Shown one piece after another: positions 45,757 through 54,347 of a DNA stretch of 64,000 nt (position 1 is its first letter; every line of letters starts with the position of its first letter). Under the pieces are notes generated by a model. It had not been told where the DNA came from and made no database searches. It saw only the letters and a list, made by a program, of their open reading frames with translations. Made by a program: the position numbers and the translations under genes. The DNA lies in assembly GCA_016283575.1 (NCBI GenBank), contig JAEEND010000022.1, positions 124,001 through 188,000 of the forward strand. Direction: 5' to 3'. The DNA is from Lachnospiraceae bacterium. Its GTDB lineage: Bacteria; Bacillota; Clostridia; Lachnospirales; Lachnospiraceae.

Positions 45757-46289
45757 TGGAAAACAAAGCTTCTAAATTTAAAATTTATATATTGGATGTT
45801 CTGTTTCTTGCTTTTCTTTTTTCGATTGACAGAACCATAAAGCATTTTATTGTTGATAAATTAAAAGATCATCCTGATTTTTCGGTTATCCCCGGAATTC
45901 TTGATTTACATTATCTTGAGAATACCGGCGCCGCTTTCGGTATACTGAAAAATCAGAGGGCATTCTTTTTAATGGTAACCATTATCATGCTTATTGCCAT
46001 TATATTTTTAATATGGAGTTTTCCTCCTAAGAAAAAATATATTGCAGCGCATTTATTTTTAATCTTTATTTCCTCAGGAGCGATTGGTAATATGACCGAC
46101 AGGATCCTGAACGGTTTCGTAGTTGACTATATTTATTTAAGCTTTATAAACTTTCCCGTATTTAATGTTGCTGACATTTATGTCACAATCGGCACTATAG
46201 GCATAGCCATTCTTTTAATCTTCTTTTACAAAGAGGATGATTTAAACTTCTTACGATTTAAAGAAAAGAAAATCAGGGAATTACATTAA
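45756..46289 (+). CDS. lspA: Lipoprotein signal peptidase (signal peptidase II)
   Basis: 177 residues, four transmembrane helices. Conserved blocks: LENTGAAFGIL, GAIGNMTDRILNGFVVDYI (first catalytic Asp region) and FNVADIYVTIG (second catalytic Asp). It cleaves prolipoproteins at the lipid-modified Cys. One-base overlaps join it to aroB upstream and to the rluD-type gene downstream. Confidence 0.94.
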   Translation: MENKASKFKIYILDVLFLAFLFSIDRTIKHFIVDKLKDHPDFSVIPGILDLHYLENTGAAFGILKNQRAFFLMVTIIMLIAIIFLIWSFPPKKKYIAAHLFLIFISSGAIGNMTDRILNGFVVDYIYLSFINFPVFNVADIYVTIGTIGIAILLIFFYKEDDLNFLRFKEKKIRELH

Positions 46290-47203
46290 TGGAAGAACAT
46301 GTTTTTATTGTATTACCTGAAGAAGAAGGAGAGAGATGCGATAAATATTTAAGTAATCTGTTTCCGGATTTATCCAGGTCATTTATTCAAAAACAAATAG
46401 AAGATGGGAATCTCATCATCAATGACAGTCCCAAAAAGGCAAATTATAAGATAAAAGCCGATGACAGGATAGTATTAACAATTCCCAGCTTAAAGGATCC
46501 CGAAATAGTTCCTGAAAATATTCCCATTGATATAGTATATGAAGATGATGATGTTGCCATCGTAAATAAACCTCAGGGAATGGTGGTTCATCCTTCCTGC
46601 GGTCATTATTCAGGCACCCTGGTAAATGCTTTATTATTTCATTTAAACGGACGTTTAAGCGGCATAAACGGGGTGTTAAGACCCGGTATTGTGCATAGAA
46701 TTGATAAAGATACATCCGGTCTTCTGATAATATGTAAGAATGATAAAGCCCATAATCATATAGCGGAACAGCTAAAGGATCATACCTGTAATCGCATTTA
46801 TCATGCAATATGCCACGGTATAATAAAGGAAGATAATTTAACAGTAGATGCGCCTCTTGGACGTGATAAAAATGACAGAAAAAAGATGAGTATCGTCCCT
46901 GACGGCAAGAGAGCAGTAACTCATATAAAAGTATTGGAGCGATTTAAAGATTATACATATATTGAATGTAAGCTTGAAACAGGACGTACTCATCAGATAA
47001 GAGTTCATTTAAAGAGTATAAATCATCCCTTAATGGGCGATCCCGTATATTTTAACGGAAAAGAAAGCTTTAAATGCGCAGGACAGATATTACATGCGAA
47101 AACCATAGGCTTTATAAGTCCAACAACGGGTGAAAAGCTGCTTTTTGATTCAGAATTACCGGATTACTTTGAAGATATACTGAAAAAATTGCGAAATAAC
47201 TGA
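46289..47203 (+). CDS. rluD: RluA-family pseudouridine synthase (RluD-like)
   Basis: 304 residues. An N-terminal S4 RNA-binding domain (about 14-75) precedes the catalytic domain, with the Asp-containing HRIDKDTSGLLIICKN at about 137-152, and LETGRTHQIRVHLKSINHPLMGDPVY further on. The lspA-rluD order is common in Firmicutes. The exact uridine targets cannot be read from the sequence. Confidence 0.93.
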   Translation: MEEHVFIVLPEEEGERCDKYLSNLFPDLSRSFIQKQIEDGNLIINDSPKKANYKIKADDRIVLTIPSLKDPEIVPENIPIDIVYEDDDVAIVNKPQGMVVHPSCGHYSGTLVNALLFHLNGRLSGINGVLRPGIVHRIDKDTSGLLIICKNDKAHNHIAEQLKDHTCNRIYHAICHGIIKEDNLTVDAPLGRDKNDRKKMSIVPDGKRAVTHIKVLERFKDYTYIECKLETGRTHQIRVHLKSINHPLMGDPVYFNGKESFKCAGQILHAKTIGFISPTTGEKLLFDSELPDYFEDILKKLRNN

Positions 47204-47229: not shown

Positions 47230-47254
47230 GTTTACATAATATTATTATGTAAAC
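47230..47254. other. 25-bp near-perfect palindrome, dif-like or operator
   Basis: Eleven-base arms GTTTACATAAT and ATTATGTAAAC flank the centre ATT. Read on the minus strand it ends in ATATTATGTAAACT (47242-47229), which equals the 3' half (XerD side) of the Bacillus subtilis dif site as I remember it; the other half fits poorly and the centre is 5 rather than 6 bases if both arms are taken as 11-mers. It lies 24 bases upstream of an extended -10, so it could instead be an operator for the next gene. Confidence 0.45.
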
Positions 47255-47287: not shown

Positions 47288-47339
47288 CTTAATATAAAAT
47301 TTAGATATAAATTATAAGTAAGTGAAGGGAGTATCGCTT

Positions 47340-47972
47340 ATGAATACAATTATAACTATCGGCAGACAGTATGGATCTGCAGGACATGAAATCGGAGAGA
47401 AGGTCGCAAACTATTTTAAAATTCCCTTTTGTGACAAATCAATTTTAACAAGAGCTGCCAAAGAAAGCGGTTTTTGCGAAGAAATGATCCAGAATCATGA
47501 TGAAAGACCCACAAGCTCTTTCCTTTATAACCTGGTAATGGATACATATTCCTTTGGTTACAATTCCTCATCATTTGTTGATATGCCCATAAGTCATAAG
47601 GTATTTTTAGCGCAATTTGATGCCATTAAGAAAATGGCCAATGAAGGTCCCTGTGTATTTGTAGGTAGATGCGCTGATTATGCTTTAAACGATTACAAAA
47701 ATGTAATTAATCTTTTCATTTATGCTGATGATGATTTTAAAATAAAGAACATATTAAAAAAAGAACCTTCCATTACAACAGAAGCAAAAGCGAGAGAGAC
47801 CTATCTAAAAAAAGATAAACAGCGTGCATCATACTATAATTATTATTCATCAAAAAAGTGGGGGCATGCAGAATCCTATGATTTATGCATAAATTCCGGA
47901 AAACTCGGTGTTGATCGTACCGTGGATTTGATCGTGCAATATGTTGAAGATTTTGAAAAAGCCACAAAATAG
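47340..47972 (+). CDS. Cytidylate kinase-like family protein
   Basis: 210 residues. The N-terminal TIITIGRQYGSAGHEIGEKVA is the P-loop region of the cytidylate-kinase-like family (Pfam 13189 type); VFVGRCADYAL and the LID-like KKDKQRASYYNYYSSKKWG follow. The ordinary Cmk is distinct and not in the window, so the substrate is uncertain. ATG 47340 has AGGGAG 8 bases upstream; the frame's earlier start at 47322 does not. It has its own promoter and terminator. Confidence 0.8.
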   Translation: MNTIITIGRQYGSAGHEIGEKVANYFKIPFCDKSILTRAAKESGFCEEMIQNHDERPTSSFLYNLVMDTYSFGYNSSSFVDMPISHKVFLAQFDAIKKMANEGPCVFVGRCADYALNDYKNVINLFIYADDDFKIKNILKKEPSITTEAKARETYLKKDKQRASYYNYYSSKKWGHAESYDLCINSGKLGVDRTVDLIVQYVEDFEKATK

Positions 47973-48126: not shown

Positions 48127-48137
48127 GAATATATATC

Positions 48138-48186
48138 TATGCGTTAAATCTCAATTTAACGAATAAATAGCACGAATTTACGCATA
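48138..48186. repeat. Nested inverted repeats in the recombinase leader
   Basis: Outer arms TATGCGT (48138-48144) and ACGCATA (48180-48186). An inner hairpin CGTTAAAT (48142-48149), CTCA loop, ATTTAACG (48154-48161). AATTTAACG (48153-48161) is echoed as AATTTACG (48175-48182). All lie between the promoter and the ATG, where a recombinase-binding or autoregulatory site would be expected. Confidence 0.5.
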
Positions 48187-48213: not shown

Positions 48214-49275
48214 ATGGGCCGTGATTCTGAATATAATAAAGAAAAAGATAAAAAATATAGATTAAAACTTGAAGCCATGAAGAAAAAGCTTCCCACTTAT
48301 ACCTATGAGTTTTTAGATTCCAAAGCTCAAAGGAATCCAAATACAGCCGTTTCATATACATATGATCTGCTTGATTTCTTCGAATACTTAAAAGAGTTTT
48401 GTCCCGGGGCTAAATCATATGAAATATCATCTGTTCCTGCAGATATATTAAATTCTTTAACTTTCCAGGACATTAATGAGTACCAGAAATATCTAAGCGC
48501 TAAAGATGTAACGATCATCGGAAAATACGACCGTCAGAATGAAATATCCGGAATCGCAAGGAAAATGTCCGCATTGCGTTCTTTTTATAAATATCAGGTT
48601 GAGCATCAATTTCTTGATAACGATCCAACTGTTGGCGCCAATAAGCAAAACCGCAAGGATGACGACCATGTGATCATTCGATTAACGCCATCCGAAGTCG
48701 ATACCTTCCTGAATGTAATAAAAAACTGCGAAGTCGGGTCTCTCAGGCAGCAAAAAATACTTCAAAATACAAGATATCGAGATTTGGCGATACTTACTCT
48801 CCTGCTTAGAACAGGTATTCGAGTTTCAGAATGTGTCGGATTGGACGTTGACGATCTTAATTTCAATGAAAACTCAATGGTTGTTGTAAGAAAAGGCCGT
48901 AAAGAGCATATTCTTTATTTTGATGAGGTAACAAAAGAAGCTCTATGTGATTATCTTGAGCTTGAACGCCCCCATTATATTGATTCCGACAAGGAAAAAG
49001 CTCTTTTTATGTCCATTCAGAAGCGCCGAATTGCCATTAGAAGCGTTCAGCAAATGGTAAATAAGTATGCCCATGTGGCTGTTGCCAATAAGAAAATATC
49101 TCCTCATAAAATGCGTTCCACATATGGTACCGCATTATATAATAAAACAGGTGATATAAGGCTTGTAGCCGATGTTTTAGGTCATTCTGACATAAATACC
49201 ACAGCAAAGCATTACGCAGCATCCGAGGATGCTCACAGACGTGCTGCGGCAAAAGTTGATCCTTATTCGGAATAA
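48214..49275 (+). CDS. Tyrosine recombinase (XerC/XerD-like)
   Basis: 353 residues. An N-terminal SAM-like core-binding domain (about 25-145) is followed by the catalytic domain with the full set of residues: Arg in RTGIRVSE (about 207), Lys in RKGRKEH, His-x-x-Arg in HKMRSTYG, His in LGHSD and the nucleophile Tyr in AKHYAASED (about 335). It is longer than classical XerC/D (about 300) because of a longer N-terminus and an insert between the domains. No integrase-type neighbours (excisionase, att repeats, phage genes) are present, so a housekeeping Xer role is favoured over a mobile one, but this is inference. Confidence 0.85.
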   Translation: MGRDSEYNKEKDKKYRLKLEAMKKKLPTYTYEFLDSKAQRNPNTAVSYTYDLLDFFEYLKEFCPGAKSYEISSVPADILNSLTFQDINEYQKYLSAKDVTIIGKYDRQNEISGIARKMSALRSFYKYQVEHQFLDNDPTVGANKQNRKDDDHVIIRLTPSEVDTFLNVIKNCEVGSLRQQKILQNTRYRDLAILTLLLRTGIRVSECVGLDVDDLNFNENSMVVVRKGRKEHILYFDEVTKEALCDYLELERPHYIDSDKEKALFMSIQKRRIAIRSVQQMVNKYAHVAVANKKISPHKMRSTYGTALYNKTGDIRLVADVLGHSDINTTAKHYAASEDAHRRAAAKVDPYSE

Positions 49276-50863: not shown

Positions 50864-51586
50864 ATGCAGGAAAACAGACTTTTAAGCCTGATAAGACAGG
50901 CAATAGATAAATATGAAATGATCGATGAGGGCGATAAAATTGCCGTAGGGATTTCAGGCGGTAAGGATTCACTCACTCTTCTTTACGGACTTTCAAAGCT
51001 TAAGAACTTTTATCCAAAGTCCTTTGAATTATATGCTTTTACAGTTGATCTGGGCTTTGAAAATGTGGATTTTTGTAAAATCAAAGCTTTTTGCGATGAT
51101 TTAGGTGTTGAATATCAAATAATAAAGACTGACATCGCTTCCATAGTATTTGATATAAGAAAAGAACAAAATCCCTGTTCTTTATGCGCAAAAATGCGTA
51201 AAGGAGCATTAAATGCCCGATTAAAGGAGCTTGAAATAAATAAGATCGCCTATGCCCATCATAAGGATGATGTTGTTGATACTCTTCTGCTTTCTTTGAT
51301 CTATGAAGGAAGATTCAATACCATTAATCCCGTTACATATTTAGACAGGGATAAGATAACTGTCCTCAGGCCTTTAATCTATGTAAAAGAAAGCGAAGTC
51401 AAGGGCTTTGTAAATAAATATGAGATTCCTGTTTTAAAGAGCCCCTGTCCCGTTGATAAAAAAACAAAACGAGAATACGTTAAGAAAGTTTTAAGTGAAA
51501 TAAATAAATGTGCCCCCGGAGTAAGCAATCGCATATTTACAGCAATTGAAACTGTTAATTTTTTTGCCGGCAAAGACAAAAGGTGA
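50864..51586 (+). CDS. PP-loop ATPase of the TtcA/tRNA-thiolation type
   Basis: 240 residues. The PP-loop SGGKDSLTLLYGL is at about 30-42. CSLC (about 106-109) and a later Cys in SPCPVDKKT (about 190-198) match the cysteine pattern of the TtcA-like branch, which makes 2-thiocytidine 32 in tRNA. Short Firmicute members are not all proven TtcA, so the tRNA target is inferred. It stands divergent to the AI-2E transporter and is followed 4 bases later by the hybrid kinase. Confidence 0.8.
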   Translation: MQENRLLSLIRQAIDKYEMIDEGDKIAVGISGGKDSLTLLYGLSKLKNFYPKSFELYAFTVDLGFENVDFCKIKAFCDDLGVEYQIIKTDIASIVFDIRKEQNPCSLCAKMRKGALNARLKELEINKIAYAHHKDDVVDTLLLSLIYEGRFNTINPVTYLDRDKITVLRPLIYVKESEVKGFVNKYEIPVLKSPCPVDKKTKREYVKKVLSEINKCAPGVSNRIFTAIETVNFFAGKDKR

Positions 51587-51590
51587 GCCA

Positions 51591-54347
51591 ATGCATATTA
51601 CACTGGAAAACGCAATTAACATAGCAAACCTCCTTAATTTCCGATCGATTATTTTTAAAATAGCCGATGGGCAGATTAAGGTTGTTTTTTATTCTGATTC
51701 AATTCCTCAAATGTTCGGATATGAACCCGATGATTTTGATAATACACTTCATACGGATTGTTCAAAACTTATCTCCCGCTACGATTATGAATATCTTTAT
51801 AAAGGCTTTTTTGAAATAGCTCATACAAAGAAAAGCTACAGCTATACCATTCAGGTTAAAAAGAAAAACGGTGGTTTATGCTTTTTAAGTGGAGTTGCTG
51901 CTTACTTTGCGGAAGAAAATGATGATCTTTATTATTATTCATCCATATATGACAGTTCTGAATCAAAGGATAAAAAGAAATCCGAATTGATTCAAAATGC
52001 CGAAAGATATCATAAGGCCATTGAATTTGCCAATATAGCCACATGGGACTATGACATCATAAATAAAAAGTTCTTATATGAAGATGATTTAAATAAATTC
52101 TTTGATTTTACATTTACCAATTTAAATATCCCTGAAGCGATCTTAAGTTCAAGGCTGATAGATAAAGATGATATTCCGGAATATCTTGAATCCTACCGAA
52201 AGCTCACTGCTGGATATAAGGAAGTTACAAGAGAAAACTGGTTCCATTTCCCCAACTCAAATACTCCTAAATATATCAGAGTTAAATATACCGTGGAATT
52301 TAACAAGGATAATATCCCTGTTGTCGCTCACGGAATGCTTATAGATCTTACTGAGCAAAAGAATGCTGAAATTGCCTTTAATTTAAGATCCGAAGCTCTG
52401 ATAAAAAATAATGTTGATAATATATGCATTAATCAGGCAAATCTTTCAAATAATACCATTAAGTCCGCTATGTCAAACTATGCGTATTTAAAGGATTTTA
52501 CCATTTGCGAATCCTTTGATGATCTGATTGCTCAGATCGTTGATAAGATTCCCGGACAGAATGATAAAATACATTTTATAAATACTTTTTCAAGAAACTC
52601 TCTCCTATCCACTTTTGATAAGAGTAATTACCAGGTAAATCTTGAGCACTCTTTATATATTAAAAAGGATTGCGAGATCTTTGTAAAAACAACCGCAAAT
52701 TTAATTAAAAATCCCATAAACGGCGATGTTGAATGCGTTCTTAATATTATTAATATTAATTATAACAAGACCATTGAAAACCTTGTAAATGGCACTGTTC
52801 AGCGTGAATATGACTATATCGCTCTTGTATATATCAAAACCAATATTTTCTTTATAATCGACCGCTATAATGTGGACTTAAATGAAGAAAACGAAGATTT
52901 CTTAGGATATTTTACAAATGAATTTAAACGAACAATCCAATCGGAAGACGAACTTGAATACCTGTTATCCGAATTCAACTATCCTAACCTCATAGAAAAG
53001 ATAAATACTTACGGAGAATATACCCTTCAATATAATACCAGCGATAATTACGAAAAGAATAAGCATAAAATACTTCGATTTGCCTTTTTAAATAATAAAC
53101 GTGATGTCATGACGGTTTCCTGTCATGATACAACCAAGCTCTTTAATGAAGAGCTTGAACAGAAAAGAAAGCTTTCAAATGCTTTGGTTGCCGCAGAAAA
53201 GGCAAATATCGCAAAATCCGAATTCTTATCTTTGGTAAGCCATGATATAAGAACTCCTTTAAACGGGATCATGGGAATGCTGGAACTTGCATCGGACCAG
53301 GATGATATTAATGTTATAAGGGGCTATCTTAATAAAGCAAAGACCTCCTCAAGTTATCTTTTAGGCCTCTTAAATGACGTTTTGGATATGTCCAAGATTG
53401 AATCCGGTAAAATCGAATTGAAGCCCGAAACTTATCCTTACAGCGAGTTCGAAGAATATTTAAGCGGAATAATTCAACCTCTCTGTGATAAAAAGAATTT
53501 ACATTTCAACTTTATTACGGATATCAAAAATAAAGCTATATATGTTGACAAGCTGAGATTTAATCAGATCATGTTCAATATTCTCTCAAACTCCTGCAAA
53601 TATACTAATCCCGGAGGAAATATTGAGCTTAAAATACGCAGTGATACCATCGATGAAAAGACCCTTATCGCTTATATAACGATTTCCGATAATGGTATAG
53701 GAATGTCTGATGAGTTTCAAAAGCATTTATTTGAATCATTCAGTCAGGAAAACCGCCCCGGTGTGGAAATAACAGAAGGTTCAGGTTTGGGACTTTCAAT
53801 TGCATATAATCTTGTAAAACTCATGGGTGGAGAAATTGCCGTAGAAAGTATTATCAATCAGGGAACGATATTCAAATTATCCTTTATACTTCCTTATAAA
53901 GAAATTACCGACGAACATCCCATCATTGATGAAGTAATAGATACCGAACCTATCAGAAAAGATTATTCCGGCAAGCGTTTCCTTCTTTGCGAAGATAATG
54001 AGATCAACCAGGAGATTGCTCTTCAGATACTTACAAATGTAGGAGCAAAGGTTGATATAGCAAATGACGGCCTTGAAGCCGTACAGATGTATAAAAAGGC
54101 AAAATCATATCATTATGATGCCATATTTATGGATATCAGAATGCCTAATATGGATGGCATGGCTGCTACTAAGGAGATCAGAAAATCCAAAAAGAAAGAC
54201 AGTAAGACAATTCCTGTTATTGCCATGACCGCCAATGCCATGAGTGAGGATCGCATGGAATGTATCGAAGCAGGCATGAATGCTTACATACCTAAACCTA
54301 TAAATATTCATCAGATGTATGCGCTCATGACAAGAATAATCAACTAG
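51591..54347 (+). CDS. Cytoplasmic PAS-containing hybrid histidine kinase/response regulator
   Basis: 918 residues, no transmembrane helix. Two PAS-like regions lie at about 20-130 and 140-275, then about 230 residues with another PAS-like fold. HisKA carries His551 in LSLVSHDIRTPLNGIMG; the HATPase domain shows NILSNSCKYTNPGG, DNGIGMS and GSGLGLSIAYNLV. The REC domain (about 795-915) has the acidic pair in LLCEDNEINQ and phospho-acceptor Asp848 in IFMDIRMPNMDG, and Lys in YIPKP. No HPt or DNA-binding output domain or partner gene is adjacent, so it is an orphan hybrid sensor with an intracellular signal. Confidence 0.85.
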   Translation: MHITLENAINIANLLNFRSIIFKIADGQIKVVFYSDSIPQMFGYEPDDFDNTLHTDCSKLISRYDYEYLYKGFFEIAHTKKSYSYTIQVKKKNGGLCFLSGVAAYFAEENDDLYYYSSIYDSSESKDKKKSELIQNAERYHKAIEFANIATWDYDIINKKFLYEDDLNKFFDFTFTNLNIPEAILSSRLIDKDDIPEYLESYRKLTAGYKEVTRENWFHFPNSNTPKYIRVKYTVEFNKDNIPVVAHGMLIDLTEQKNAEIAFNLRSEALIKNNVDNICINQANLSNNTIKSAMSNYAYLKDFTICESFDDLIAQIVDKIPGQNDKIHFINTFSRNSLLSTFDKSNYQVNLEHSLYIKKDCEIFVKTTANLIKNPINGDVECVLNIININYNKTIENLVNGTVQREYDYIALVYIKTNIFFIIDRYNVDLNEENEDFLGYFTNEFKRTIQSEDELEYLLSEFNYPNLIEKINTYGEYTLQYNTSDNYEKNKHKILRFAFLNNKRDVMTVSCHDTTKLFNEELEQKRKLSNALVAAEKANIAKSEFLSLVSHDIRTPLNGIMGMLELASDQDDINVIRGYLNKAKTSSSYLLGLLNDVLDMSKIESGKIELKPETYPYSEFEEYLSGIIQPLCDKKNLHFNFITDIKNKAIYVDKLRFNQIMFNILSNSCKYTNPGGNIELKIRSDTIDEKTLIAYITISDNGIGMSDEFQKHLFESFSQENRPGVEITEGSGLGLSIAYNLVKLMGGEIAVESIINQGTIFKLSFILPYKEITDEHPIIDEVIDTEPIRKDYSGKRFLLCEDNEINQEIALQILTNVGAKVDIANDGLEAVQMYKKAKSYHYDAIFMDIRMPNMDGMAATKEIRKSKKKDSKTIPVIAMTANAMSEDRMECIEAGMNAYIPKPINIHQMYALMTRIIN

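Follow-up and report, generated by a model that had tools for sequence, protein, structure and literature searches.

The palindrome at positions 47230-47254 of a 64,000-nucleotide stretch of Lachnospiraceae bacterium DNA (the whole stretch is called the window below) is probably not dif itself but, judging from its sequence, a two-armed landing site for XerD near the end of replication. In the explanation that we regard as the best, and as fairly probable, dimers would be resolved by a XerS-like recombinase (XerX) at a site of its own (difX), and XerD would be kept as a DNA binder at the palindrome (palindrome A), where SMC would be unloaded. The features of the window that bear on this explanation are:

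46289-47203, plus strand: RluA/RluD-family pseudouridine synthase gene, ending 26 bases before palindrome A
47230-47254, no strand assigned: palindrome A, two inverted XerD-type half-sites around the 5-bp centre TATTA; proposed XerD homodimer site
47230-47239, minus strand: half-site 1 of palindrome A, TTATGTAAAC when read on the minus strand
47245-47254, plus strand: half-site 2 of palindrome A, TTATGTAAAC
47322-47972, plus strand: cytidylate-kinase-like gene (cmk), ORF as listed; weak model match (21.9 bits, cut-off 102)
48135-48168, plus strand: difX, proposed dif of the XerX system, ATCTATGCGTTAAATCTCAATTTAACGAATAAAT, with 4 mismatches (by eye) to the family consensus AACTATTCGNNAAANNNNNNTTTAACGAATAGTT
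48214-49275, plus strand: xerX, 353-aa tyrosine recombinase, XerS-like; best model XerS (191 bits, below the cut-off of 267)

Palindrome A lies between the RluD-like and the cytidylate-kinase-like gene, the latter of which has a likely alternative start at the ATG at 47340. The palindrome reads GTTTACATAATATTATTATGTAAAC and can be written GTTTACATAAT-ATT-ATTATGTAAAC, bearing out the 11-base arms around a 3-base centre that an earlier note on this DNA had described; the arms are perfect, and the 14-mer ATATTATGTAAACT that the note had compared with the XerD side of dif is present on the minus strand. Both arms contain the half-site TTATGTNAAC, inverted and 5 bp apart, and the spacing of 5 given in the note holds when measured between the TTATG cores. 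The arms are XerD-type half-sites, as the note had proposed, and neither arm is of the XerC type. The half-site TTATGTNAAC matches the XerD arm of several of the classical dif sites listed in PMC2731167.

Searched with 22 fixed bases and a tolerance of 3 mismatches, the window has one match to the palindrome pattern, and none of 100 dinucleotide shuffles contains any. The 2.21-Mb draft genome (97.5% complete) holds one exact copy and one copy with 3 mismatches; the latter, on contig C25, was rejected, as it falls at the start of an unrelated coding ORF. Exact TTATGTNAAC occurs only twice in the 234-kb contig C19, the two occurrences being the two halves of palindrome A. A long inverted repeat is in itself nothing rare, several being present in each of 20 loci scanned, so the case for palindrome A rests on its conservation.

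The palindrome is conserved in related genomes, where the earlier note had proposed to look for it: the pattern GTTNACATAA-N5-TTATGTNAAC (at most 1 mismatch) is found in 85 of 396 family genomes, with at least 2 genomes among the matches listed for the reversed pattern that served as a control. Positive genomes carry 1 to 4 copies, and 34 of the 85 positive relatives carry 2-4 (counted from the table); where several copies are listed for a genome (20 genomes), they all share one contig in 16 cases, at distances of 0.6 to 145 kb from each other. Two members of the genus with a XerD-like match (G012 and G017) have only a weak, 2-mismatch copy elsewhere. In a scan of named genomes the exact pattern recurred in at least 119 stretches, from many Lachnospiraceae and also from Bacillaceae, Tissierellia and a few others.

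The spacing between the half-sites is likewise fixed. Inverted TTATGTNAAC pairs (at most 1 mismatch) with spacings of 0-15 were found in 419 fetched loci (3.24 Mb) at a spacing of 5 only, the count of 118 distinct pairs being inflated because many of these loci were fetched by that very pattern; five more pairs have spacings of 16-28. In 60 loci cut automatically around xerX or difX both of the 2 pairs have a spacing of 5, as do all 8 pairs in 20 hand-placed regions; an earlier test, with 10 of 10 pairs at 5, covered 80 loci that included the 20 hand-placed regions, some of them chosen to include a known palindrome.

Position along the chromosome was assessed by GC skew, which in the window is positive before and negative after ~50-54 kb. 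The cumulative skew along contig C19 has its peak at window position 52,241, 5.0 kb from palindrome A, so that the skew plot suggested in the earlier note places the palindrome near the replication terminus. Changes of sign close to the palindrome are also seen in G391 (+0.080 over the 13.6 kb before it, –0.077 over the 6.4 kb after it) and in the complete genome of Neobacillus sp. OS1-33 (+0.078 at 606-616 kb, –0.116 at 616-624 kb, palindrome A at 616.3 kb). The skew peak lies 11.8 kb from palindrome A in G014 and in G001 (99 kb read in each) and the skew change 18-46 kb from it in Metabacillus indicus; no change of sign was seen in the stretches sampled beside palindrome A in Anaerocolumna sp. 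MB42-C2 and Bhargavaea cecembensis.

The tyrosine recombinase gene that the earlier note had placed about 960 bases downstream is xerX, which starts 959 bases after palindrome A, and the link of the palindrome to a Xer-type gene is conserved. For 58 of the 71 genomes with listed places (a subset of the 85 positives) palindrome A is on the xerX contig, with the nearest copy at a median distance of 3.1 kb (maximum 69 kb) and within 10 kb in 44 of these 58; in the other 13 of the 71 the two are on different contigs of drafts. The nearest copy is less than 70 kb from xerX in all 10 single-contig genomes with a listed site. The site lists behind these distances, and behind the XerD association and catalytic-state counts given below, were compiled by hand from tables. 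Palindrome A is thus located at the terminus and clustered near xerX, and it is separate from the proposed dif at 48135-48168.

Two xerX lineages are present in the genus (the window regions concerned are 48214-49275 and 50864-51586). One, ~80% identical to the xerX of the window, lies between cmk and an AI-2E-transporter-like gene, as in the window; the other, ~44% identical, follows a ttcA-like gene. A genome of another genus (G020) carries a xerX copy at each of both positions, and the pattern suggests that one lineage was replaced by the other. Outside the family, the XerS-like gene of Neobacillus has palindrome A just downstream in both cases seen (L317+L188 and L296), with a difX-like repeat, recognised by eye, upstream of the gene in L296; the Bacillaceae (Neobacillus) therefore have the same arrangement of XerS-like gene and palindrome, with the skew change at the palindrome in OS1-33. 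In Tissierellia (L196, L208 and L284) the palindrome is within ~1 kb of a Xer-type gene, near a gene read as lexA.

The better dif candidate of the region is difX, an inverted repeat distinct from palindrome A, 0.9 kb away from it and ending 45 bp before xerX. Its 21-base core, GCGTTAAATCTCAATTTAACG at 48141-48161, is identical in all 6 genus members compared (all with a window-type xerX), and the surrounding sequence is less conserved. The family consensus AACTATTCGNNAAA-N6-TTTAACGAATAGTT is found in 167 of 396 family genomes (at most 3 mismatches), nearly always once; among the matches listed, at least 6 genomes have more than one difX and at least 2 genomes match the reversed control. The difX of the window, with its 4 mismatches, is missed by this search. 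The site is usually near xerX and lies tens of kb off in some genera (e.g. ~28 kb in G065, 58 kb in G487). By analogy, the dif of a single recombinase would be expected to look like this: asymmetric, nearly single-copy, at the terminus and next to a XerS-like gene; we infer that XerX acts at difX. A search of the window's genome for the canonical Firmicutes dif gave no site with 3 or fewer mismatches. When 9 genomes reached via named loci were searched in like manner, there were 3 weak matches in 2 genomes and control matches in 2 others, so little is learnt from it about a dif near palindrome A in Bacillaceae. Our literature search returned no match for XerS with a dif site in Lachnospiraceae, and difX would provide this large family with a candidate dif; by a term search, neither Lachnospiraceae nor Butyrivibrio nor Eubacterium is named in the main text of one large dif survey (PMC3025954).

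The distribution of palindrome A was also compared with that of XerD. The window's genome has a clear XerD (358 bits, model cut-off 329.6), and a Phage_integrase search of it returns only two genes, this XerD and xerX, leaving no recognisable XerC. None of 150 family genomes passes the cut-off of the XerC model, which is a strict one as only 2 of 14 control genomes pass it. Among the same 150 genomes, one per genus (the sole control for kinship), 80 have a full-length XerD and 31 of these carry palindrome A, against 4 of the other 70 (Fisher p = 1.5e-6); the cut for full-length XerD (E = 1e-74) was chosen by us, and two other cuts give p = 2.1e-6 and 3.2e-6. In all 4 exceptions (G106, G157, G214 and G223) the XerD ortholog is C-terminally truncated and ends before the catalytic tyrosine, and some of the 70 genomes counted as lacking a full-length XerD may hold a truncated one, as these four and G112 and G218 do. 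The site is not universal, since 49 of the 80 genomes with full-length XerD are without it (at most 1 mismatch). The distribution of xerX is wider: all 59 palindrome-bearing genomes searched have it, and so do 36 of the 37 good genomes in a set of 60 relatives (best E at most 1.2e-47); only 7 of these carry the palindrome by a stricter sequence pattern. In its distribution palindrome A follows XerD, not xerX. The association of difX with full-length XerD is only weak (41 of 80 with, 23 of 70 without, p = 0.03).

XerD itself is not always intact. The XerD of the window's genome has all six catalytic residues, as do 37 of the 60 orthologs compared, this one included; 7 differ by K-to-R only and 16 are more degenerate (7 of them without the tyrosine). 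This sample consists of the gene of the window's genome, 20 hand-picked orthologs (the 4 exceptions, other short matches, and single-contig genomes carrying palindrome A) and 39 less selected ones, from 40 genomes taken at about every second entry of the 150-genome list of the XerC search, one of which (G175) gave none. Palindrome A accompanies 16 of the 37 intact, 3 of the 7 K-to-R and 11 of the 16 degenerate XerDs of this partly picked sample, 8 of the 11 genomes in the last group having been selected for carrying it. The 39 less selected XerDs comprise 30 intact, 3 K-to-R only and 6 degenerate ones, and the palindrome occurs with 10 of these 30 and 3 of these 6. Three gene families, cl5, cl16 and cl17 (read as spoIIM-like, proC-like and nudix), recur near the degenerate XerDs, at least one of them in each of the 10 degenerate-XerD neighbourhoods read, which supports orthology. 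The loss of catalytic residues in several relatives suggests that XerD is kept to organise the chromosome and not to recombine it.

A precedent for such a role exists in the XDS sites of the B. subtilis terminus, at which XerD unloads SMC (cited in PMC10945525, PMC12322038 and PMC8242196). Compared by described properties, palindrome A resembles XDS in that it consists of XerD-type sites in the terminus that are apart from the proposed dif. In work by Karaboja et al. from 2021, XDS are reportedly distinct from dif and require neither catalysis nor XerC. In contrast to XDS, palindrome A is a near-perfect palindrome with a fixed 5-bp centre, and in contrast to the B. subtilis host its hosts have no recognisable XerC, with a XerD that is catalytically degenerate in several relatives. 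With the classical Firmicutes dif (XerC/XerD, 28 bp) the palindrome shares the XerD arm TTATGTNAAC, the terminus position and an AT-rich centre. However, classical dif combines 11-bp XerC and XerD arms around a 6-bp centre, is single-copy and serves a XerC/XerD pair, whereas both arms of palindrome A are XerD-type, its centre is 5 bp, its copy number is 1-4 in relatives (though one in the window's genome) and its hosts lack a recognisable XerC.

It is the xerX/difX module, and not palindrome A, that resembles XerS/difSL of streptococci and lactococci, where, as stated in PMC5357621, a single recombinase of ~355 aa acts with an atypical dif next to its gene. Both systems have one recombinase with an atypical dif (a proposed one in the case of difX) adjoining it at the terminus, but XerX scores below the cut-off of the XerS model (191 versus 267 bits). 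Streptococci also encode, beside scpAB, a XerD-like protein of ~245 aa that lacks the tyrosine; our literature search found nothing on this protein, and we know of no cognate palindromic site for it. The XerDs without the tyrosine resemble it as XerD relatives kept in a XerS organism, near SMC partner genes in the case of G112. There (L399, 7067-10208) a single gene separates the truncated XerD from genes read by inspection as scpA and scpB, an arrangement that we take to be reminiscent of the streptococcal one. Unlike in streptococci, no scpAB-like gene was recognised in 9 of the 10 degenerate Lachnospiraceae XerD neighbourhoods read.

Several other explanations of palindrome A have to be weighed. 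One takes it for dif proper, on which XerX would act either by itself or together with XerD; this accords with its terminus position, its XerD-type arms, its linkage to xerX (at most 10 kb in 44 of the 58 genomes with both on one contig) and its place just 3' of the XerS-like gene in Neobacillus and G391. We nevertheless consider it unlikely, as the palindrome has no XerC-type arm and no 6-bp centre, its 5-bp centre is without conserved sequence, it is present in up to 4 copies per genome, it tracks XerD rather than xerX and it persists where XerD is catalytically degenerate. The dif reading put forward in the earlier note is consequently not supported, and a better dif match elsewhere, which the note itself had named as speaking against its proposal, is offered by the candidate difX, which is asymmetric, nearly single-copy and directly upstream of xerX. 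The note had also raised, as a real alternative, a dimeric repressor that would control the cytidylate-kinase-like gene with the palindrome as its operator. In agreement with this, the palindrome lies between rluD and cmk in all 10 members of the genus for which both it and the adjoining genes were read. Yet the palindrome lies downstream of cmk in G020 and beside xerX in G030 (no cmk match in the 19 kb read), other genes adjoin it in other genera, and at the rluD-cmk junction of two other members of the genus, G007 and G016, there is no palindrome match. Among 139 sites with enough flanking sequence, 11 are inside an ORF of at least 110 aa, 73 lie between tandem genes, 45 between convergent genes and 7 between divergent genes, with 3 at an edge, so that divergent gaps hold only 7 of the 125 classified intergenic sites. 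We therefore find an operator very improbable. Convergent pairs are expected to be common at the terminus, so this context lends weak support to the reading as a XerD site.

A hairpin element, either an RNA 3'-end structure or a DNA cruciform, with the resemblance to dif being secondary or the symmetry arising from quasi-palindrome correction, is quite unlikely in our estimation, though it would account for a property that counts against simple dimer binding: the outer flanks are self-complementary over 7 positions each way without sharing a sequence. At positions +1 to +7 the flanks are self-complementary in 71, 62, 61, 55, 53, 41 and 38% of 164 non-redundant sites from fetched loci, compared to 25-43% after shuffling (z 3.9 to 8.8); among 64 difX sites there is no comparable run, +1 alone standing out (z = 2.7). 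By hand arithmetic, the centre pairs of the same 164 sites are complementary in 38% and 48%, about as expected from base composition. Two copies in one genome may differ in their flanks while each is individually symmetric (G087 and G108). Also in line with a hairpin are the proximity of the palindrome to gene 3' ends (median 36.5 bases, 118 sites), a local RNA fold z of –2.65 and an excess of G-U over A-C pairs in the sense of transcription (40 to 24). That excess is, however, not significant (p = 0.06), a downstream T run is absent (9 of 73 tandem sites, versus 8 of 73 for upstream A runs), and a plain hairpin leaves the conserved core, the terminus location and the link to XerD unaccounted for. 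A transcript hairpin is thus not clearly supported, and the flank symmetry could come from quasi-palindrome correction, from birth by inverted duplication or from a hairpin function. Gene context and the missing T run led us to reject the operator and terminator readings. We also considered an integrated mobile element between duplicated copies of the palindrome, for which ORFs and matches to a few query genes were listed around some of the duplicated pairs.

The arm sequence, the terminus location, a fixed spacing unlike that of dif, the tie to XerD and the fact that the palindrome survives beside tyrosine-less XerDs together fit a site at which two XerD molecules sit without recombining. In the mechanism that we propose, dimer resolution in this lineage would have passed to XerX acting at difX, and XerD would have been retained as a sequence-specific DNA-binding protein in the absence of a recognisable XerC. 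Each of the inverted half-sites, whose spacing is 5 bp where dif has 6 bp, would then be occupied by one XerD molecule, and SMC complexes coming in along both chromosome arms would be met and unloaded by the bound pair. Binding of XerD to palindrome A is the step that we think likely; the unloading of SMC there, argued by analogy with B. subtilis, has in our view about an even chance. The broader evolutionary account is about equally tentative: a XerS-like recombinase with a dif of its own may have taken over, and XerD may have become a recombination-independent terminus protein acting on palindromic SMC-unloading homodimer sites, its catalytic residues decaying repeatedly, in different genera, while the sites and the gene neighbourhood were kept.

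If this account is true, these bacteria would constitute a natural experiment that separates the two tasks of XerD. Where a genome has retained XerD and the sites but not the catalytic residues, this would indicate that organisation of the terminus alone is enough to maintain the gene, and inverted TTATGTNAAC at a 5-bp spacing would be a compact and predictable site by which SMC-unloading regions may be located from sequence.
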